A stretch of 64,000 nucleotides of DNA from a virus: positions 1 through 64,000 of IMG/VR virus record IMGVR_UViG_3300036859_000973, one strand, 5' to 3'. The stretch's first letter is position 1; each line of letters begins with the position of its first letter. The position numbers and the translations under genes were made by a program. Below the pieces are notes generated by a model, which worked only from the letters and a program-made list of their open reading frames with translations, made no database searches and was not told where the DNA came from. This document shows, one piece after another, positions 44,760 through 62,278 of the stretch.

Positions 44760-44954
44760 CTACTTCGCCAGCCGGGCGAGGATGCGCTCCAGGCGCGCGA
44801 GGCGCTCCTCGACCGTCAGGTGGTGGTATGCCGGCGTGGGGATCTCCCAGCGGTCAGGGACAACGTGGTCCTCGACGGCGAGGTCGCACTCGGGCGCGAT
44901 CGAGAGTTCCATGGCGTCGATGCGTTGGATTGTCTGCTCAGTGTTTCCTGCCAT
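44760..44954 (-). CDS. Small protein (64 aa), last gene of the replication operon
   Basis: This 64-residue protein has a C-terminal leucine-rich helix (LTVEERLARLERILARLAK) likely to form a coiled coil. It overlaps the end of the ERCC4-nuclease gene by 17 bp, so it may be coupled. It may be an accessory subunit of that nuclease; no family is recognised. Confidence 0.55.
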   Translation of the reverse strand: MAGNTEQTIQRIDAMELSIAPECDLAVEDHVVPDRWEIPTPAYHHLTVEERLARLERILARLAK

Positions 44955-46803
44955 CGGGTTCTTCCTCCTTGATGCCCAGTAGCTCGCGCGAGATCCGCGC
45001 GCAGCGGCGGAGCGAGATCAACTGCGCGCGCCCACCGGCGCCGCCCTTCCCGTCCTTGGCCGGCGGGCCCACGTCGATCATCGGCCAGCGGCCGAGGTGG
45101 AGGGCCTCCTCCAGCATCTTCCAATCCACCTCGCGCTCCGCCTTCACGCCGAAGGTCTCGCCATCCTTGGTGGGCCGCGTGACGTTGACGCCCGAGAGGC
45201 TGTCCAGGAGCCGCTGCCTCGGTGGCAGGCCCGTGGCCCACACGCGCGCCGGCTTGGGCGCCATCTCGGGATCGGCCTCGATGCGGCGCAGGATCTCCAC
45301 GGTGTACGCGGGCCCGAACGACACGATGACCCAGAAGTTCTTCGAGATGCGGGCCAGGTGCTTCAGGGCTTGCGAGCGCGTGGCCTGCCAGCCGCGGAGG
45401 CGCTCGTTCCAGGCGTCGTTGGACTCCCCCCCGATTGGCTCCAGCTTGTCGTCGGTGAGCATGTCGATGGGGTCGAACTCGATGATGAGACCGTGGACGT
45501 AGGAAAGCTGGCGGTCGAGCTTGCCAGGGTCCTCCTTGTTGCGCCACGTCGCGACGTAGTCGCCCCAGGTGTTGTGAGTGACGATGAACCTCTCCGCGAC
45601 GTAGAGACCATCTTTGTTGGCGACACGGATGCAAACTGCCTCGGCATCGCCCAATAGCTTCACGTTTTTGATCGAGCGCTTAACTGAGTGGGAACGGCGC
45701 CCTCTTTGTTTTTGGGAGTCTTGCTTGCGTGTTGTCCTGAACGGCTGCACCCAGGATGGATACTTAACAGAAATTGTCCAGTTTTTGCGCCCGGTTTTCT
45801 TGTTCCCTTTGTAGGTGTATTGACTGTTGGTCCTGCTGTTGCACCACACGACGCATCCTAGACTCTCTGCCAGATGTATGAAGTCCTCCGTCAGCTTTGG
45901 ACTTGTTGTGCCATATTTTACCGAGGTACGATCGCGACAGGCCCATCCATCGGTGTCCATCATTCCTTGGAGAAGGGCCACCCGTTGCTCTACGCTCCCA
46001 AACAGATAGGTCTCTGGAATGAACTTCTCCCATGCACGATGGCCCGAGAGACCGAGTTTTCGTAGAGCAATGAGGTAGGGGTGGCGTTCACCGTATCCGG
46101 GTGAGCCGCTGATCCTCCATGTGATTCCTCTCTTGTCTGGAACAAGGCGAAGACCATCTGGCAGTAGGGCCCTGACGTTCTCAACCAATTCGGCGTCTCC
46201 TTTGGTGAATGTGACATCATCGCCAGTTAGACATCCATCTCCTAGCAAGACGCCAAGGACATATGGATGGATGGGGAGGTTTTTGCTTGAAAATTGCACA
46301 GGTTCCACGATGGGCAGGTGCCAACGATAACCACCGTGCCTCCACCTGACACTGTTGGCAATTTCCTTGAGGGGAATTGTTCTCCATGTACCGCCCGACT
46401 GTCTAACGGTCCAGAGGTGTTCTTCGGTACAACGTGTCTTGGCTCCATCCGTGAGCAGGACTTCGTAGATCGGAACCTTGCCTTGTGGGAAAACTCCAGT
46501 GATTGTCGTAGGATTTCCGTCGGAACCGATGACGCGGTCGCCAACAGAGAGCTTCCCGATGGGAATCCATCCATCTGGCGTCAGGATCGGGGTGTCGATC
46601 GGATGCGCCTTGCGCTCGAAGCGGATCTCCAGCTTCGCATGGTGGTTCGCGGGTCGAGGGTCCTCGACGATCACAAGGAAGTCATACCTAAAAGGCGAAC
46701 CGTCGTGGTCCTCCTCCTCGATGTCGAGATTCCAGATCTCGTCGCACTCCTGCTTGAAGATGGGCTCGTCGCGCGCCTCGCGCTCGTCCACGATGACTGT
46801 CAC
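44938..46803 (-). CDS. ERCC4 (XPF-type) nuclease interrupted by an intein
   Basis: The 621-residue precursor consists of a 275-residue nuclease split by a 346-residue intein (residues 66-411). The host protein begins TVIVDERE, has YDFLVIVEDP, and joins ERK (63-65) to TWGD after splicing. This restores ERKxxxD, the catalytic motif of ERCC4/XPF nucleases. The C-terminal part (LPPRQRLLDSLSGVN) may be a helix-hairpin-helix-like segment. XPF-family enzymes cut branched DNA, so a role in recombination or replication-fork processing is likely. The unspliced form must be inactive. The start is GTG overlapping the upstream stop (GTGA). Confidence 0.88.
   Translation of the reverse strand: MTVIVDEREARDEPIFKQECDEIWNLDIEEEDHDGSPFRYDFLVIVEDPRPANHHAKLEIRFERKAHPIDTPILTPDGWIPIGKLSVGDRVIGSDGNPTTITGVFPQGKVPIYEVLLTDGAKTRCTEEHLWTVRQSGGTWRTIPLKEIANSVRWRHGGYRWHLPIVEPVQFSSKNLPIHPYVLGVLLGDGCLTGDDVTFTKGDAELVENVRALLPDGLRLVPDKRGITWRISGSPGYGERHPYLIALRKLGLSGHRAWEKFIPETYLFGSVEQRVALLQGMMDTDGWACRDRTSVKYGTTSPKLTEDFIHLAESLGCVVWCNSRTNSQYTYKGNKKTGRKNWTISVKYPSWVQPFRTTRKQDSQKQRGRRSHSVKRSIKNVKLLGDAEAVCIRVANKDGLYVAERFIVTHNTWGDYVATWRNKEDPGKLDRQLSYVHGLIIEFDPIDMLTDDKLEPIGGESNDAWNERLRGWQATRSQALKHLARISKNFWVIVSFGPAYTVEILRRIEADPEMAPKPARVWATGLPPRQRLLDSLSGVNVTRPTKDGETFGVKAEREVDWKMLEEALHLGRWPMIDVGPPAKDGKGGAGGRAQLISLRRCARISRELLGIKEEEPDGRKH
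45571..46608 (-). mobile_element. Intein (class 2, Ala1) with LAGLIDADG domain in the ERCC4 nuclease
   Basis: The intein is 346 residues long. It starts AHPIDTPILTPDGW with Ala in place of the usual Cys/Ser, has block B TEEHLWT, LAGLIDADG-type helices (VLGVLLGDG, LLQGMMDTDG) and ends FIVTHN before Thr+1. Ala1 inteins splice by direct attack of the +1 residue, and Thr+1 fits. The DNA is less GC-rich than the flanks. The insertion point is inside the ERKxxxD active site. It is related to the intein in the helicase at 60713-61765. Confidence 0.88.
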
Positions 46804-51010: not shown

Positions 51011-51808
51011 TCAGGCCTCCTCCACCCGTGGCGCGATGAGTCCTAGGAATCGGAGATGCTCGTCGGCGTAGCGAAAGGCGATCGGCACGTCGTTGCCGAA
51101 GAGGATCTCGATCTGGCGCTGCGGGAAGCAGGCCACCATCTGGTTGAGCACGTCAATCCCGAGACACGTCCGGATTCCCTCGATCTCCTTCGGGACGCCA
51201 TCGGCGCCCGGCAGCGGCACGACATCGTCCATGTCGATGGTAGCACCCGTGCCGAGGGAGTCGTCCTTGGACTCGATGACCAGCTTGCCGTCCTTGACGG
51301 TGAAGATGATGAGGCTCGCGCGGTCGCGGCTCTCCGTGCCGAGCTTCTCGGCCGTCGTCGCGAGGAGCTTGATCTGCTTGGCGTCGAGCCGCGTCATGGC
51401 ACGCAGATCGAGCTTCTCGATGGGCGGGATGTTCTTGATGTTGGGGCCGTAGGCGTCGAGGGGGCGCTCGACGCGCACGCGACCGCAGCGCATGACCATC
51501 TTCTTGCCGTGATCCATGAAGACGGAGACGTCGTCCTCGATGCCCAGCTTGCGCACGCTCTCCAGGAACGTGGCGGCGTGCGACAGCGGGACGTAGAAAT
51601 CCGTTCCTTCCGGCGGGCCGATCCACTCGAACTCCTTGAACGCGCCGCGCGCCATCTCGACGCTGATGAGCATCACGCTGGCGTGGTCGCTGAGCGCCGT
51701 GCGGATTCCCTTGTCGTCCACGCGGACGGCTGCGACGTCGTGGAGCTTCGACGCGAGAACGAAGGCTTCCTCGAATCGGAAGGCGGGCGCGATGAGCGAC
51801 AGGGGCAT
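51011..51808 (-). CDS. pcn: PCNA sliding clamp
   Basis: This 265-residue protein ends HLRFLGLIAPRVEEA, the typical PCNA terminus. The interdomain connector lies around residues 120-135 (IPPIEKLDLRAMTR), and the beta pattern of two clamp domains is visible. It forms a ring on DNA that tethers polymerase, nuclease and ligase partners. It lies behind a TATA box and the shared TTGGACAACGTATGTAGG element with a leader of only about 12 nt. The ATG at 51808 is set by this promoter. Confidence 0.92.
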   Translation of the reverse strand: MPLSLIAPAFRFEEAFVLASKLHDVAAVRVDDKGIRTALSDHASVMLISVEMARGAFKEFEWIGPPEGTDFYVPLSHAATFLESVRKLGIEDDVSVFMDHGKKMVMRCGRVRVERPLDAYGPNIKNIPPIEKLDLRAMTRLDAKQIKLLATTAEKLGTESRDRASLIIFTVKDGKLVIESKDDSLGTGATIDMDDVVPLPGADGVPKEIEGIRTCLGIDVLNQMVACFPQRQIEILFGNDVPIAFRYADEHLRFLGLIAPRVEEA

Positions 51809-51824: not shown

Positions 51825-51851
51825 CCTACATACGTTGTCCAAGTGTATAAA
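51825..51851 (-). promoter_or_regulatory. PCNA promoter: TATA box with TTGGACAACGTATGTAGG element
   Basis: On the minus strand TTTATA (51851-51846) is followed after 3 nt by TTGGACAACGTATGTAGG (51842-51825), and the PCNA ATG starts 17 nt later. The element occupies the space between TATA box and start of transcription, a typical repressor site. Confidence 0.75.
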
Positions 51852-51879: not shown

Positions 51880-53628
51880 TCACTGGGCGCGTCGCTCGCG
51901 GCGGTGGACCTTGACCTCGCGTCTGACGGCAGCCTTGATCCGGTTGAAGCCGAGGCGACACGCATCGGCCCTATCGTCGTGAAACCGTCCTTCTGCCGTG
52001 AACATGAGGAACTCTTGGATCGTGTCCTTGTCCTCGTATTCGAGGAGGAACTCGCCCCGCATCATGGCCTGGAGCAGGCCGCTCTCGACGAGGGCCGTGT
52101 CCTTGTCGGCTTGACCCTTCTCGACGAGGAGCGGCAGGATCTCCTTGGATTGCTGGTGGACTTGCTGGGCGTAGGCCTCCTGGAAGCCGATGCCCTCCGT
52201 CACGACGTTGGCTGGCTGGCGTATCCACGGGTGGCGATAGAGCGACTCCATCATCTTGCACACCTCGGGGAAGTCCCAGCGCGAGGCGCGCACGCGCGCG
52301 TACACCTTCTTGTCCCTCGTGCGCACGAGCATCGCGACGGCGGTGCGGTCGTGGCGGCGCTTCTTGCCGATGGCGTGGTCCCAGGCGTGGATCTCCATGA
52401 CGACGTCGTCCGGCTTCGGCGGCGGCACGATGGAGACGCTGTTGTATTCGCTGGGCTTGCCCACGAGCGCGGCGTCCGAACTCCAGAAGCGCAACATCTC
52501 CTTCGTGACGCGCTGCTGCGACGGCGGCACGAAGAAGAGCATCTGCTGGGTCGTGAAGGAGACGGCATCGCGGAGGTACTTCTCGTGCAAGAGCCACTCG
52601 ACGCTGCGGTGGACCCCCCATTCGACGTAGTGCTCCTTCGTGCCGGGGCAGTTGCCGGTGCCGAGCAGGCACGGCCAGAGCGCCTCCAGGCTCCGTCCCT
52701 TCTCGGTCATCGTGACCCACGTCCGCTCGCCGCTCTCGTTGAGGATCTCCTCGAAGTCGCCCTGCGCCTCCTCGGAGCCCATGGTCGGGAAGCGGCTCAG
52801 GGCAGGGCGCTTCACGACGTAGAAGCCCCCCTTGGCGAGACGATCGTTGGTGTCGTCCTCGTACTGCGGCGTGCAGAGGCTCCACACCGTTGCGCCGGGA
52901 TCGAGCGTGCCGAACAGGGTGTTCTGGCACCACTCGTACTGGACGTTGCGGAGATGCTGCGTGCGCGAGTTCTTCGGCGTCACGATGTCGTCGAGCTTGG
53001 TCTTCTTGGGGTGGAGGCCTTGGAGCGCGCCACCGACGCCGATGGCCAGGATCGTCGGGTTCTTGCCGATGCTGCCGGCAGCGGGGATCACGATCTTGTC
53101 GCCCGCCCACGTCGTCGAGAGTTCATGGAGCGTCTCGCCCTTCGGGCCGTGGAAGGCCGCGTCGATGAGGCGCCCTTGGCCGCCCGAGTCGATCGTGTTG
53201 CGCACCGCGTTCATGGTGAGCGTGGCGGCGTCGGCCGTCTCCTGGACGATCAACTCGCGCGGGTCGCGGTACTTGCTGTCGGGGAGGATGGCGTAGCAGA
53301 CGTCGTGGACCGTGTCAGCGATGGCATACGTCTCCGACTTCGAGTGCGAACGCGGCAGCATCACGACGACGTTGTCGCGACCGCGGACTTCGCGATCGAC
53401 GTTGATCATGAATGGCACGACGTCCTTGCCAAGGAAGATGTGTGCGAAGAGCAGGACGTTGTCCTCGCATAGGACGGTGGCGCGAGCCACGCCGTCCTGC
53501 TGCTTCTCGACGCGCTCGCTGAGCAGGCCATCCATCAGCTTGTCGTAGTCGGCGTGGCCGATGAGGCCGTGGCGGACCGCGGCTGGGATGCGGCGGATTT
53601 CTGGGAGATCGGTCGGATGCTGGATCAT
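51880..53628 (-). CDS. terL: Large terminase subunit
   Basis: This 582-residue packaging motor has an N-terminal ATPase with Walker A-like LPRSHSKSE (91-99, Lys97) and Walker B KLDDIV (211-216). The C-terminal RNase H-like nuclease has acidic residues Asp417 (HAWDHAIG), Glu479 (VTEGIG) and Asp551/552 (FHDDRADA). It cuts concatemeric DNA and pumps it into heads through the portal. It lies on the opposite strand from the virion operon and far from the portal, which is unusual. The ATG at 53628 has a GGGGGAG site and overlaps the upstream stop. Confidence 0.92.
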   Translation of the reverse strand: MIQHPTDLPEIRRIPAAVRHGLIGHADYDKLMDGLLSERVEKQQDGVARATVLCEDNVLLFAHIFLGKDVVPFMINVDREVRGRDNVVVMLPRSHSKSETYAIADTVHDVCYAILPDSKYRDPRELIVQETADAATLTMNAVRNTIDSGGQGRLIDAAFHGPKGETLHELSTTWAGDKIVIPAAGSIGKNPTILAIGVGGALQGLHPKKTKLDDIVTPKNSRTQHLRNVQYEWCQNTLFGTLDPGATVWSLCTPQYEDDTNDRLAKGGFYVVKRPALSRFPTMGSEEAQGDFEEILNESGERTWVTMTEKGRSLEALWPCLLGTGNCPGTKEHYVEWGVHRSVEWLLHEKYLRDAVSFTTQQMLFFVPPSQQRVTKEMLRFWSSDAALVGKPSEYNSVSIVPPPKPDDVVMEIHAWDHAIGKKRRHDRTAVAMLVRTRDKKVYARVRASRWDFPEVCKMMESLYRHPWIRQPANVVTEGIGFQEAYAQQVHQQSKEILPLLVEKGQADKDTALVESGLLQAMMRGEFLLEYEDKDTIQEFLMFTAEGRFHDDRADACRLGFNRIKAAVRREVKVHRRERRAQ

Positions 53629-53840
53629 GGGCTCTCCCCCTTGCTGGTGCGGCGACGATGGGGATAGCGCTGCCTTGGCCACCCCAACACATCGCGCAGC
53701 GCGTTTGCCTCCGCTGCAAGCTCGGTTTGGATGAGCGCGAGCGGCGCGTTGACTTGCACAAGCGCTGGTTCGTAGAGGGCCAAGCGCTCATCGTCCTCGA
53801 TGCGCCGCAGTTTCTCGGCTACTTCCGTTTCCGTCATCAT
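53625..53840 (-). CDS. Small helical protein before the terminase (71 aa)
   Basis: This 71-residue helical protein (EKLRRIEDDERLALYEPALV, LALIQTELAAEANALRDVLG) ends in a basic tail RRRTSKGESP. It is coupled to terL by ATGA, and its last codons contain the terL ribosome-binding site. The position makes it a candidate small-terminase subunit or terminase regulator, but the length is short for that role. Confidence 0.6.
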   Translation of the reverse strand: MMTETEVAEKLRRIEDDERLALYEPALVQVNAPLALIQTELAAEANALRDVLGWPRQRYPHRRRTSKGESP

Positions 53841-53992
53841 GGTTTCGTGTCTCCCGTCCCACTGGCTCGCGTAGCAGCCCGCAGTCCGGCGTGGCTGCCG
53901 TGGACGGGGCAGGGCGCGCAGGTGCTTGTGGCCTTGACGTTGCAGGTGCAGGTTGTCCACGCGGCGAGCGCGCAGGGTCCTGGGTCGCACAT
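53837..53992 (-). CDS. Cysteine-rich microprotein (51 aa) with ASG tail
   Basis: This 51-residue protein has six cysteines in the first 30 positions (C2, C7, CTC, CAPC), a likely metal or disulfide core. It ends in the shared ASGTGDTKP tail. Its stop overlaps the next start (ATGA). No family is recognised. Confidence 0.6.
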   Translation of the reverse strand: MCDPGPCALAAWTTCTCNVKATSTCAPCPVHGSHAGLRAATRASGTGDTKP

Positions 53993-54193
53993 CTACGCTC
54001 CCTCCTTCCCGCTGGCGCTGAAAGCTCCCACGCCGCGCCGTGCCTGCATCATTGGAGAATCGTATAGCGCGCCCGTGGCCGTGTTCTCCGCGTAGATGAA
54101 CCGCGAGCCGCACTCCGGGCACGGCGGATCGGGAGGCCCATAGTCCAGCCACTCGAAACGGCAATCGTCGCAAGTTAGCGACCAGTCGCTCAT
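53993..54193 (-). CDS. Zinc-ribbon microprotein (66 aa)
   Basis: The protein has CDDC near residues 8-11 and CPEC near 24-27 (SDWSLTCDDC...PPCPECGSRFIY), a rubredoxin-like zinc ribbon followed by a flexible part ending in SASGKEGA. Its ATG overlaps the previous TGA. The stop TAG directly touches the next ATG. It may act as a transcription or RNA-binding factor, but nothing else supports this. Confidence 0.65.
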   Translation of the reverse strand: MSDWSLTCDDCRFEWLDYGPPDPPCPECGSRFIYAENTATGALYDSPMMQARRGVGAFSASGKEGA

Positions 54194-54420
54194 GGCGACC
54201 CTCCCGTCCCGCTGGCGCGCTCGATGGGGCGCGGCGCATCGTTGTGGCGCAGGACGCCCAGCATCTTGACCGCGTAGCGCGGCGGATTCTGGACCATCAC
54301 GCCTGTGAAGCGGGAGGCGTAGTAGCTGGTCTTGCCGAGCGTCAGGAGCATGAACGGTTCGTCGCGCCACCACGCGACGAGCCATCCACGCGGTAGCTTC
54401 AGGTTCCGTGTCACGCTCAT
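54190..54420 (-). CDS. Small protein with PRGWLVAWW core (76 aa)
   Basis: This 76-residue protein has a Trp-rich strand region (LPRGWLVAWWRDEPFMLLTL) and a C-terminal RASGTGGSP tail shared with neighbours. It is coupled on both sides by ATGA. No domain is recognised; the aromatic core resembles small beta folds of phage early proteins. Confidence 0.6.
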   Translation of the reverse strand: MSVTRNLKLPRGWLVAWWRDEPFMLLTLGKTSYYASRFTGVMVQNPPRYAVKMLGVLRHNDAPRPIERASGTGGSP

Positions 54421-54653
54421 GGCTTCGTCCCTCCGCTCCCGCTGGCTCGCGGCGGGCAACACGGCTCGTCCGGCGCGGTGCTCCTCACCCGATGTGTTTC
54501 GCAGTAGTACCACCCTCTCTCGGAGAGACTCGGCCGAACCCGGCAGGGCTCCACGCTCACCGCCTCCGCCTCGACTTCCTCTGCATCCGCTCTCCTGGGG
54601 CGTTGTTCCACCACCACACCTCGCAACCCTGCCAGGGATCGCACATCGCTCAT
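54417..54653 (-). CDS. Small protein with Cys residues and ASG tail (78 aa)
   Basis: This 78-residue protein has four cysteines (C46, C62 and CC near the end), an acidic middle (ADAEEVEAEAVSVE) and the tail RASGSGGTKP. It is coupled by ATGA to both neighbours. Function is unknown. Confidence 0.55.
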   Translation of the reverse strand: MSDVRSLAGLRGVVVEQRPRRADAEEVEAEAVSVEPCRVRPSLSERGWYYCETHRVRSTAPDEPCCPPRASGSGGTKP

Positions 54654-54793
54654 CGCCTCCGCTCGGAACGGTCGCGTAGCTGCCACATCGGGATGGGCGC
54701 ATATCCGGGCCAGGGCGCCTTCGTCACGAGGCGGGACTCCATGGTCGGCGGCTCCCAGCCGCGACGCCGCCAGCGGCGGTCATCGTCGCTCAT
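54650..54793 (-). CDS. Arg/Trp-rich microprotein (47 aa)
   Basis: This 47-residue protein (SDDDRRWRRRGWEPPTMESR, ending RDRSERRR) is strongly basic with four tryptophans, suggesting nucleic-acid contact. The ATGA overlaps on both sides are the main evidence that it is translated. Confidence 0.5.
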   Translation of the reverse strand: MSDDDRRWRRRGWEPPTMESRLVTKAPWPGYAPIPMWQLRDRSERRR

Positions 54794-54906
54794 GGCGTCT
54801 TCCCCCTCCCGTTGGAACGCTCGCGGGATGAAGAACCACGAACGACTCCGAGGCGACCGTTCGCCGCGGCCGCGTCCCCGCGAGGGGGTGGGGATTGGAA
54901 CATCAT
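54790..54906 (-). CDS. Microprotein after the uracil glycosylase (38 aa)
   Basis: This 38-residue Gly/Arg/Ser-rich product has ATGA overlaps with the glycosylase gene and the next microgene. It ends SNGRGKTP, a variant of the shared tail. It may exist mainly to carry the intercistronic element, or be a small basic protein. Confidence 0.45.
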   Translation of the reverse strand: MMFQSPPPRGDAAAANGRLGVVRGSSSRERSNGRGKTP

Positions 54907-55451
54907 GCCGTCAACTCCAAATTGGACCGGAGCCTGGCAACGTAGGGCGTCCAGTCCTTGCCCGTCCTCAAAAACCAGGAGGGGTGAGGAACGAGGAAGG
55001 TGGGCTGGTCGAGCCCTCCGAAGTGATCCGTGGCGTGTTCTGCGACGCGACCGACGGCCACGATGGCGCGCGGTTCGGAGAGCCGGACGATCTCGTTGAG
55101 CCACGGCCGGCACGCGCTGATCTCGCTGACACGGGGCGCACGGAAGTGGGCATCTGCGAGGTCGCGCGGCATGCAGGCCACGGCGTTGCAGAGAAGCCAG
55201 CCGTCGGCCGCGAGGCCGAGATAGCCATCGAGCCACGTCTGGAGAAGCTTCCCGGCACGTCCGATGAAGGGCTCGCCGGCCTTGATCTCGTCCGGGCCCG
55301 GCGCCTCGCCGACGAAGAGAACAATTCCCTTGCGGAACGAACCACGCCATGGCGCGTGCAGGCCTGGCATATGGCCAAGGAGACAGCGCGTGCAGACGAG
55401 GATCTCTTGACGGAGGTTCTCGACTTCGAGCGCCCACGAGGCATCGGTCAC
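54903..55451 (-). CDS. Family-4 uracil-DNA glycosylase
   Basis: This 182-residue protein is a 4Fe-4S uracil-DNA glycosylase. Motif A is GEAPGPDE (48-55), the cluster cysteines are C20, C23, C93 and C114, and the C-terminal motif HPSWF (156-160) has the catalytic His. It removes uracil from DNA arising from cytosine deamination, useful for a GC-rich genome. It overlaps the nuclease gene upstream and a microgene downstream by ATGA, so it is part of the replication operon. Confidence 0.9.
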   Translation of the reverse strand: MTDASWALEVENLRQEILVCTRCLLGHMPGLHAPWRGSFRKGIVLFVGEAPGPDEIKAGEPFIGRAGKLLQTWLDGYLGLAADGWLLCNAVACMPRDLADAHFRAPRVSEISACRPWLNEIVRLSEPRAIVAVGRVAEHATDHFGGLDQPTFLVPHPSWFLRTGKDWTPYVARLRSNLELTA

Positions 55452-56539: not shown

Positions 56540-56550
56540 CCTTCATCACC

Positions 56551-56574
56551 TACATACGTTGTATGTATATTTAA
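56551..56574 (-). promoter_or_regulatory. Nuclease promoter: TATA box plus CATAC-gtt-GTATG palindrome
   Basis: On the minus strand TTAAATATA (about 56573-56566) is followed directly by CATACAACGTATG (56565-56553) and the gene starts at 56539. The upstream MCM-like gene ends inside the TATA box, with its TAA at 56571-56573. The 5-bp inverted repeat is the same as at 6359-6371. Confidence 0.75.
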
Positions 56575-59098: not shown

Positions 59099-59447
59099 CT
59101 TCGCAGATCGGGCACGCCATGTGGACGCGCCCGTCCTCCAACCTCGTGACCCAGCCACCGGCGCAGCCGCGCGGGCACGGCTCGAAGCTCACGGGCACGA
59201 GGGAGTCGAGCGCGACCGCATCGACCGCGACGACCTGTGTCGGGACGACCTTGGCCTTGATCCTGGGTTGCCGCAGGATCGACGGAGGTGCGTCCTCGCG
59301 CTCCGCCTCGTGGCGCCGCCCCGGGATCACGATGGGCCGCGTCAGGACGGCCCACAGCAGCGCGACGAACAGCACCGGGATGATGAGGCCCGTCACGGTG
59401 AGCACGACGACGGCTCCGAGCACCGCGGCGGGCCAGAGGTCGGTCAC
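59091..59447 (-). CDS. Membrane-anchored zinc protein (118 aa)
   Basis: The protein has an N-terminal hydrophobic segment long enough for one or two membrane helices (VLGAVVVLTVTGLIIPVLFV) and a C-terminal zinc-knuckle pattern (CPRGCAGGW ... CPICEGK). Its GTG start overlaps the TGA of the helicase gene (GTGA). Function is unknown; the arrangement of a zinc domain on a membrane anchor is seen in some small regulators. Confidence 0.55.
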   Translation of the reverse strand: MTDLWPAAVLGAVVVLTVTGLIIPVLFVALLWAVLTRPIVIPGRRHEAEREDAPPSILRQPRIKAKVVPTQVVAVDAVALDSLVPVSFEPCPRGCAGGWVTRLEDGRVHMACPICEGK

Positions 59448-62278
59448 GCGCCCCCCATCAGTCGCTCGGCGACGGCGTCCATGATGTTCGCCTCGATCTC
59501 GCCATCGGCTCCGTCGTGGACGGCGGCGGACTCCTTCTGCTTCTCCACGAGCACGCCCCAGATGTGCTCGTCGATGCTGCCCTCGCCGAGGAAGTACCAG
59601 GACGTCAGGCCGTGCGGATCGTTCTGGCGCGCGTAGCAGCGCCCCTCGGCTTGGATGAAATGTGCGGTGGGTGTCCACCAGAGCGATAGGGTCGCCATGT
59701 GCGACGCCGCGGTCATCGTGTATTGCTCCCCGCCGGCCAGGAGCGATCCGATGAGCTTGCGGCACGACGGATCAACCTGGAAACGGTCCACGTTCTTCTG
59801 CGCCGCGGCGCCCATGCCGCCGCGCACGATGGCGGAGTCCGGGAACGCCTCGACGAGCTTCGACATCGCATCCTCGTGATGGGCCCAGACGACGATCTTC
59901 TGGTCGCTCGACGGTGGGAAGTTGTCGTTCAACCACTCGATGACGCCGGCGACCTTGCCGATCTCCGTGAGATGGCGCAGCTTGTTCAGGCGCACCAGCT
60001 TCTCGGCGCGCATGGCGCCACTCGGGTCCTTGCCGTGAGCCACGAGCCACTGGACGATGTCCTCCTCGGCGGCGCGGTACTCGGCCTCGTTCGTGAGCGG
60101 CAGCGGGATCACGTTGCGCTGGAGCGGCGGAAGCTCGCCGAAGACCTCCTCCTTCGTGCGCCGCACCATGCACGTTGATCTCAAGCGCATGTGCAGGCCC
60201 TTCAGGTCGCGCACGCCCTTGCCGCCGAGGCGGTCCTGGCGCTGCCGGCCATAGGTGAAGCGGAATTGCGTCGGCCCGCCGAACTCGTTGATCCATCCCA
60301 GTACCGTGAGCGGCACGACGAGATCCTCCGCGGTGTTCACCACGGGGTTCGCCGTCAGGCCGACGCGCAGCGGGACGTCCTGGCTCAACGCGAGCGCGGC
60401 CTCGGCGCGGAGCGTGTTCCTGTTGCGGACCGAGTGGATCTCGTCGAAGACGACGGCGCGCGGCTTCAGCGCGCGGAGCGCGTCGATGTGTTTGTGAAGC
60501 AAATTATACGAGACCAGGTAGCAGTCGGCGCCCGTGGGAATCGTGCCCTTGCCCTCGACCACGACGACGCTGCGGCCGGGCAGCCAAGCCTTCATCCCGA
60601 GCGGATCGTAGCCCATGATGTGGCGCTTCCAGTGCTGCTTGCCGTTGCCGCGCACGACGAAGATCGCCGGCCATGCCCCGAGGGCGTGGGGGATCGCCAT
60701 GCCCTGCTGCGTGTTGTGCGTCAAGATGCAGTGCTCAGTCGCATAGAGGGCGTCTGGCGCATCCACGGCGATGCACACGGATTCGGCATCCTCAACGTAT
60801 TCGATAGATTGAACAACCCGGCGGGGAGCAGCAGATCTCCCAGGTGAATATCGAGACGCCCTTCGTGGCAGGGTAAATGGTGGAATCTCCGCTGGCAGTC
60901 GGATGCGAACTTGGTAGTCCGTAGGTTTTGATTCGTGTGAGCGATCGTATGCCCGCACGCTGGCTACTCCACCAAGACCCTCGACCAATTCTTGGACGTT
61001 TCCTGCTAGACGGGCGCTGATCGTATGATAATTGATTTTGTTTCCCGTCTTGGAGATACTTCCGTCACCATCCATCAGGCCGTGAAGCAAGGCGATACGA
61101 TCATTTGGCGTGGCTCTCAGATAAGCAATGGGGATGTGTTTCTCTCGGCTTAGAACATCAAGGTCCAGTGATCTAATGGCATTGATGATGCCAGAAAATC
61201 CTGCGCGGATCACATTATCATATTTGTTCTCGCTGCTTGCGACAATTCCCTCCTTCTTGAGCCTAGTCTTGATGAATGACCAATTCCACTTGGCTGTAGA
61301 GAGTTGTGGTGTGCCACTGGCGAGGTGCCCATTTGCAATGAGCTGTCCTAGAAAATATGGTGGGATTGGCAGGTTGCCCCTCTGCTTGTTGAAGATCACC
61401 GGTTTCTTGAGCATTGGCAAATGCAACTGAGTCTTGCTCAAATCGAGCTTTGTGCTCTTACGAGTGCCACTTTTCCACTTCATCTCAAGAATGGGTCGTG
61501 TCCTCATCTGTTCGGTGGTCAGGACGATTTCTTTCCATCTGCGTCCGCCGCAGTGGTATCTCATCGTCCATAGGTGATCTGGGCCGGCTTCGACCGAGGA
61601 ACCGTCGCTGAACTTCACCCGATAGCTAGGTTTTGTTCCCTGTGGGAAGATGGCGAGGACGTTCGCAGGTTTTCCGTTGGAACCAATGACGTTGTCTCCA
61701 ACTTTGAGAGAGCCGATGGTGCGCCATCCGCTCGATGTGAGGACATTTGTATTCGTCCTATGACATTTTCCGAGGCCGGTCTCGTCACCGATCAGGACGC
61801 CGATCGTCTTCTTCTCCGGCAGCTTCACAGGATCAACGACGTCGCCGCCAACCTCGTGGCCGGCGAGTCGCATAGCGAAGGCTACGCTCGCAGCTTGGTA
61901 CGGCCGCAGGTCCATCCGCATCCCAGACACCTGGAAGTGCGCCTCGGGCAGCGCGCTGGCGGTCCGCGTCGCCTCGGCGCGCTTGAGCACACCATCCGCA
62001 AGCTCGCGCGCCTCGTCGCCCCAGCGGTACGCGAACTTCTGGGTGAACTTGATGAGTTCGAGCACCTCGCTGAAGCTGGCGCCGACGAGCCATGTCTTCG
62101 ACTCATTGTCCCACGCCGGGCGCGGCCTGGGCCAGACGCGCACGGCCTCCGCGAAGGCGATGTCGTACTCGCCCTCGATGGCAAAGCCTTCGCCGCGGCG
62201 GTGGATCGTGCCGGTGCCGAACTTCCGCGTGGCGGTCGGGACGACGCCACCTTTCGGCTTCAGGTTGTAGAGGCCCAT
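59444..62278 (-). CDS. SNF2/HARP-type helicase interrupted by an intein
   Basis: The 944-residue precursor holds a 593-residue DNA-dependent ATPase split by a 351-residue intein (residues 172-522). The N-terminal domain (EGFAIEGEYD...PRPAWDNESKTWLV) resembles HARP domains of SMARCAL1-like proteins. Walker A GDETGLGK joins T after splicing, motif II is DEIH (612-615) and motif VI is QAEGRCYARQND. Such enzymes remodel replication forks or anneal DNA. It overlaps the membrane zinc protein by GTGA. Without splicing the Walker A motif is broken, so activity depends on the intein. Confidence 0.88.
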   Translation of the reverse strand: MGLYNLKPKGGVVPTATRKFGTGTIHRRGEGFAIEGEYDIAFAEAVRVWPRPRPAWDNESKTWLVGASFSEVLELIKFTQKFAYRWGDEARELADGVLKRAEATRTASALPEAHFQVSGMRMDLRPYQAASVAFAMRLAGHEVGGDVVDPVKLPEKKTIGVLIGDETGLGKCHRTNTNVLTSSGWRTIGSLKVGDNVIGSNGKPANVLAIFPQGTKPSYRVKFSDGSSVEAGPDHLWTMRYHCGGRRWKEIVLTTEQMRTRPILEMKWKSGTRKSTKLDLSKTQLHLPMLKKPVIFNKQRGNLPIPPYFLGQLIANGHLASGTPQLSTAKWNWSFIKTRLKKEGIVASSENKYDNVIRAGFSGIINAIRSLDLDVLSREKHIPIAYLRATPNDRIALLHGLMDGDGSISKTGNKINYHTISARLAGNVQELVEGLGGVASVRAYDRSHESKPTDYQVRIRLPAEIPPFTLPRRASRYSPGRSAAPRRVVQSIEYVEDAESVCIAVDAPDALYATEHCILTHNTQQGMAIPHALGAWPAIFVVRGNGKQHWKRHIMGYDPLGMKAWLPGRSVVVVEGKGTIPTGADCYLVSYNLLHKHIDALRALKPRAVVFDEIHSVRNRNTLRAEAALALSQDVPLRVGLTANPVVNTAEDLVVPLTVLGWINEFGGPTQFRFTYGRQRQDRLGGKGVRDLKGLHMRLRSTCMVRRTKEEVFGELPPLQRNVIPLPLTNEAEYRAAEEDIVQWLVAHGKDPSGAMRAEKLVRLNKLRHLTEIGKVAGVIEWLNDNFPPSSDQKIVVWAHHEDAMSKLVEAFPDSAIVRGGMGAAAQKNVDRFQVDPSCRKLIGSLLAGGEQYTMTAASHMATLSLWWTPTAHFIQAEGRCYARQNDPHGLTSWYFLGEGSIDEHIWGVLVEKQKESAAVHDGADGEIEANIMDAVAERLMGGA
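60713..61765 (-). mobile_element. Intein with LAGLIDADG domain in the helicase Walker A motif
   Basis: The 351-residue intein begins CHRTNTNVLTSSGW (Cys1) and ends CILTHN before Thr+1. It carries block B PDHLWTM and LAGLIDADG helices (FLGQLIANG, LLHGLMDGDG). The site, GDETGLGK|T, is a hot spot for inteins in ATPases. DNA composition is AT-richer than the flanks. It shares several long motifs with the intein in the ERCC4 nuclease (VGDxVIGSxG, FPQG, HLWT). Confidence 0.9.

Follow-up and report, generated by a model that had tools for sequence, protein, structure and literature searches.

A repeated start-site block within the coding junctions of a row of overlapping microgenes in an unclassified contractile-tailed phage

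Between the uracil-DNA glycosylase gene and the terminase large-subunit gene (terL) of an unclassified phage, seven or eight microgenes of the minus strand run into each other over positions 54906 to 53625. Four of their junctions carry clear copies of a related block of 23-30 nt, composed of GCCAGCGGGA and a strong Shine-Dalgarno sequence, which also encodes the end of the upstream protein. We think it probable that these genes are translationally coupled via locally copied start sites, in which case the protein tail that they have in common would be a by-product. The window analysed here is a stretch of 64,000 bases, namely bases 1-64,000 of an 85,101-base IMG/VR virus record that was read to its end; positions in the whole record are marked as contig positions.

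Results

The row is preceded by a gene of the uracil-DNA glycosylase superfamily (UDG, 54903..55451; PF03167, E 3.4e-25) and followed by terL (51880..53628; phrog_38, E 1.3e-38), both on the minus strand as are all genes of the row. UDG overlaps g1 by ATGA and terL overlaps g7 in the same way; every junction of the row is such an overlap except that of g5 and g6, which touch (TAGATG). Overlaps of 4 nt occur at 41 of the 119 same-strand neighbours in the contig. The first gene, g1 (54790..54906, 38 aa), ends in SNGRGKTP, and g2 (54650..54793, 47 aa) is rich in Trp and Arg. No homologue was found for g4 (54190..54420, 76 aa), which has the tail ASGTGGSP. The zinc-ribbon-like g5 (53993..54193, 66 aa) has two CxxC pairs, the tail ASGKEGA and a weak match to PF08274 (E 5.9e-4, below the curated cut-off), and g6 (53837..53992, 51 aa) is Cys-rich with the tail ASGTGDTKP. 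The last gene, g7 (53625..53840, 71 aa), matches phrog_22742 (function not known; E 8.1e-6) and has homologues in Aeromonas phages with 38-41% identity. Its position ahead of terL had suggested a small terminase, an idea that found no support in the Aeromonas homologues, whose genes are located near an RdgC-type exonuclease. In family searches, no protein of the row matched a family pointing to a role in counter-defence.

Codon usage clearly favoured the annotated frame for g2, g4, g5 and g7 only; it gave marginal support to g3 and left the open frames g1 and g6 undecided. The preliminary description had counted seven overlapping microgenes between UDG and terL, and its frames and its ATGA or touching junctions stand, with the exception of the 78-aa g3 (54417..54653). 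This frame is probably two genes, because the Shine-Dalgarno sequence of the ATG at 54646 is far stronger than that of the ATG at 54653 (-12.5 vs. -5.4 kcal/mol) and the frame of the former has the higher third-position GC. The two candidates, both resting on Shine-Dalgarno strength and third-position GC, are 3b (54646-54557, 29 aa), which begins MCDPWQGCEVWWW, and 3c (GTG start at 54560 or 54554, end at 54417, 45-47 aa), and they overlap by GTGA. A short repeat, GCGGAGGCGRTGAGCG, is common to the two inner junctions of the g3 region.

The junction block is clear before g4 (GCGAGCCAGCGGGAGCGGAGGGACGAAGCC, 54421..54450), g5 (GCGCGCCAGCGGGACGGGAGGGTCGCC, 54194..54220), g6 (CAGCGCCAGCGGGAAGGAGGGAGCGTAG, 53993..54020) and g7 (GCGAGCCAGTGGGACGGGAGACACGAAACC, 53841..53870), all on the minus strand and all within 0.6 kb. 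These four copies read GCCAGYGGGA and then the Shine-Dalgarno sequence, and the frame of the upstream gene reads A-S-G through every one of them. A degenerate copy that includes the start of g2 lies before that gene (54785..54823, minus strand) and is 79% identical over 39 nt to 54185-54223 at the g4/g5 junction (self-search E 3.6e-5). Copies differ from each other at 10-25% of positions. The block is weak before terL and absent before g1 and g3, so that its earlier attribution to most junctions holds for four clear sites and the degenerate one. As for its occurrence elsewhere, a partial copy, AGCGGGAAGGAGG, was found at contig position 78828, in the same frame as in the row and again before an ATGAGC start, and a position-weight scan of the contig gave no further copy above noise.

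The likeness of the junctions was compared with a null in which codons were shuffled except for the final five of every gene, where the Shine-Dalgarno codons lie. The summed pair similarity of the seven junctions was 160, as compared with 111 +/- 4.5 in the null, and none of the 2000 trials reached the observed value. Pairs scoring at least 14 made up 3 of 21 in the array and 0 of 1770 among the other coupled junctions outside the second row described below (Fisher 1.4e-6). When the array was searched against itself with BLASTN, all hits with E < 0.1 were junctions; their alignments, at most 43 columns long, span the stop and start codons. The likeness reaches upstream of the Shine-Dalgarno sequence, and the longest copies still match beyond the start codon, whereas the gene bodies showed no similarity to one another in DNA or protein. 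These results demonstrate that the repeat at the row junctions is not due to chance. They also bear out two earlier observations, that the bodies of the proteins differ and that the DNA of the block encodes the ASGTGGSP-like tail of the upstream protein, which it does in a fixed A-S-G frame at four junctions.

In line with the preliminary description, the block has both the placement and the strength of a ribosome-binding site: sites in the array mostly fall at -10 to -13 kcal/mol, vs. a contig mean of -7.6. This strength resides in the 3′ half, and the 5′ half (GCCAGCGGGA) pairs poorly with the anti-Shine-Dalgarno sequence. An RNA stem-loop at the junctions was ruled out by folding, since five junctions folded no better than shuffled sequences (z -0.4 to +1.8). 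An overlapping stop and start with an internal Shine-Dalgarno sequence is the classic setting for termination-reinitiation coupling, and translation is known to be coupled at such ATGA pairs in E. coli and Haloferax (PMC6728339). Because the 3′ half is a strong Shine-Dalgarno sequence, the 5′ half pairs poorly, the junctions fold no better than shuffled sequences and the geometry is the classic one, we read each block as the putative start signal of the next gene, written in the last codons of the previous gene. From these features we infer that the frames of the row are translated and that their translation is coupled.

A second gene row, also on the minus strand, lies at 72.2-73.2 kb of the contig and has a junction block of its own, GCGGGGGTGGGCGC. 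This sequence or variants of it are common to the coupled junctions at contig positions 73205, 72780, 72589, 72224 and 69837; blocks of this type end directly at (A/G)TGA and specify tails such as AGVGA, LAVGA and RGWGA. Strong Shine-Dalgarno sites occur in both rows. When all coupled junctions of the minus strand were considered, pairs less than 1.5 kb apart were more alike than distant pairs in a permutation test whose p-values are exploratory, because it was devised after the data had been seen (p 0.0005 with the array and 0.008 without it; 0.001 and 0.013, respectively, in a repeat run; 0.03, a weak local likeness, for a segment just inside the downstream gene). Segments ending 33, 66 or 99 nt upstream of the junctions showed no significant local likeness, nor was any seen among the plus-strand coupled junctions or in four control phages, each of which has fewer coupled junctions. 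About 1 Mb of other phage DNA, searched at the same threshold, yielded one close junction pair and no triple.

The contig contains another repeat associated with gene starts, which likely represents an independent sequence family. The 12-mer AGAGGGAAACGC, in one copy TGAGGGAAACGC, is positioned 0-3 nt ahead of five starts (contig 76468, 75822, 73420, 68903 and 66663); the copies themselves, all on the minus strand and beyond the window, are at contig 76481, 75836, 73434, 68915 and 66678. At four of the five starts, the palindrome CTACATACNNNGTATGTAG or a variant lies 24-167 nt upstream. Such operator-like palindromes were found at 56550-56568 of the window and at contig 66756, 68970, 73587 and 75846, with a half-site near 51838 of the window.

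Family searches matched the tail sheath, tape measure, baseplate, head protease and terminase to known families, and thus identified a contractile-tailed phage, the proteins of which have only distant kinship with those of cultivated phages. No close relative was found in IMG/VR with single-protein queries (TerL, sheath, UDG, g4 and a likely capsid protein guessed by gene position), with a TerL alignment (23-33% identity among the matches listed) or with two patterns, an exact one for the junction and one for a TerL motif, in GTDB with TerL, or in GenBank phages by tblastn (TerL, UDG, helicase, baseplate protein, protease, likely capsid protein, g4 and g7), in collections that may omit the records nearest to the genome of the window. 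No tRNA was found in the window, a search of 84 kb against Rfam gave no match, and no phage recombinase was recognised among the proteins searched, which represent part of the contig. Directly downstream of terL, the minus strand (51011-51808) encodes a protein like the archaeal-type DNA polymerase sliding clamps (NF002219, E 4.7e-13, below its curated cut-off). This match and those of the baseplate to haloviral proteins had raised the idea of a haloarchaeal host, which the amino-acid composition does not support (D+E 13%). An SNF2-type helicase gene (59444-62278, minus strand) has an apparent intein at its Walker A motif, as judged from an alignment and from matches to intein families, and a second protein with intein-type matches is encoded at 44938-46803 on the minus strand.

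Discussion

Repeats at start sites are already known in other phages, and the coding form seen here, confined to a row of overlapping genes, is a variation on them. The SAS/ESAS of cluster K mycobacteriophages are unusually conserved repeated ribosome-binding sites (PMC3203893), and Microbacterium cluster EF phages have start-associated sequences too (PMC7302621). Like the SAS, the block is short, asymmetric and repeated at the ribosome-binding sites of a number of small genes that are unrelated to each other, and it is conserved beyond the needs of a Shine-Dalgarno sequence. In cluster K, however, 11-19 copies are spread across the non-structural genes, mostly after gaps of more than 50 bp (PMC3203893), whereas the block belongs to one row (four clear copies, one degenerate copy and the partial copy elsewhere in the contig), is coding, and joins genes that overlap or touch with no gap. 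A closer parallel to SAS/ESAS appears to be the 12-mer AGAGGGAAACGC with its palindromes, which resemble ESAS inverted repeats or repressor operators and lie upstream of the 12-mer as the inverted repeats lie upstream of the SAS. Our pair test recovered the SAS of TM4 and detected extended ribosome-binding-site repeats in Streptomyces phage Percastrophe (ACAAGGGGAGAGAACA-like) and Aeromonas phage AhMtk13b (CCTGGAGACCATAAAA-like), so that repeats of an extended start site are not in themselves rare. The preliminary view of the block as a unique cassette signature is not supported: this contig has two or more local families of such blocks, and other phages, too, have extended ribosome-binding sites that recur. 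The row shares with known ATGA termination-reinitiation pairs the stop/start overlap and a Shine-Dalgarno sequence within the upstream gene, but those pairs are not described as sharing a copied segment (PMC6728339), as the row junctions probably do.

According to the reading that we favour, the row would be one polycistronic stretch read by translational coupling, in which the last 8-9 codons of each gene carry a strong ribosome-binding site for the next. At least four junction segments, each comprising block, Shine-Dalgarno sequence and stop/start, would descend from a single ancestral segment that was multiplied within the row through local duplication, insertion or recombination, and the gene bodies would have come from different sources or have diverged past recognition. 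The ASGTGGSP-like tail would then be the translation of the copied segment in a fixed frame and not a selected protein signal. Copying of junctions fits the different block of the second row and the likeness of neighbouring junctions. Descent of the copies from a common segment is suggested by their sequences, and it is not fully separable from strong selection on start sites, because the copies differ at 10-25% of positions.

One could envision the likeness of the junctions as having arisen by convergence, the ATGA overlap and a strong Shine-Dalgarno sequence at a fixed spacing forcing a Gly-rich tail with no common origin. Overlap geometry and the Shine-Dalgarno sequence do fix a large part of the last five codons, and strong sites are present in both rows. 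The GCCAGCGGGA half, however, lies outside the Shine-Dalgarno sequence, pairs poorly with the anti-Shine-Dalgarno sequence and is missing from most other coupled junctions, and shuffling with the final five codons held fixed never gives so high a likeness; we consider convergence strongly disfavoured and very unlikely. Equally improbable to us is a regulatory start-associated site, at which a phage or host factor would bind the block and control how the row is translated, a role that has been proposed for SAS. Bases are conserved beyond the Shine-Dalgarno sequence at the position of an SAS, in a phage with a separate SAS/ESAS-like system, but the block is limited to one row while the next row has a different one, it forms no RNA structure, and it lies within coding sequence. 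The second row, the local likeness on the minus strand and the single close junction pair in about 1 Mb of other phage DNA lead us to favour local copying over convergence or a regulator acting across the genome.

The tail might itself have been selected, for instance as a turnover or targeting signal, given that it is common to four proteins and in frame. We find this scarcely credible: the tail and the ribosome-binding site are one and the same DNA, the copies keep nearly the same codons instead of varying synonymously, and the second row has other tails, such as AGVGA. Whole-gene tandem duplication, in which units were doubled together with their junctions and the bodies diverged fast while selection for translation held the junctions, would also leave local junction families. 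The MCDP start of both 3b and g6 points in this direction, as does a weak Cys-rich alignment, ending in SGKE, between g5 and the gene that ends at contig position 78795. That the bodies within the row have no significant likeness in DNA or protein, and that the zinc-ribbon, Trp-rich and helical ones look unrelated, makes such an origin unlikely in our estimation.

The junctions might in addition serve as points of short homologous recombination, at which microgenes would enter or leave coupled rows while their neighbours keep working starts, so that each row would maintain a self-perpetuating junction family. We put this forward as a speculation that we consider unlikely. The PeSL cassettes of T4-like phages, repeated regulatory segments amid small unrelated genes, have reportedly been proposed as mediators of gene shuffling and are described as consisting of a promoter and a stem-loop (PMC4503421). 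They would do for transcription what the preliminary description suspected of the block, which differs in being translational, coding and devoid of a stem-loop; recombining junctions, if they exist, would be a translational counterpart of PeSL cassettes inside coding sequence. The suggestion that such a row is suited to gaining and losing anti-host genes as cassettes is a conjecture compatible with our results, which yielded neither a close relative nor a family match that ties the proteins to host defence.

For annotators, the row is a caution: where neighbouring small proteins end alike, the common C-terminal tail may stem from a shared start signal and need not be a protein motif. The origin of strings of small genes is usually left open, because most mosaic boundaries bear no trace. 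If the junction copies mark the points at which microgenes entered, they would be such a trace, left in the sequence, of the way in which phages put together rows of tiny genes that are not related.
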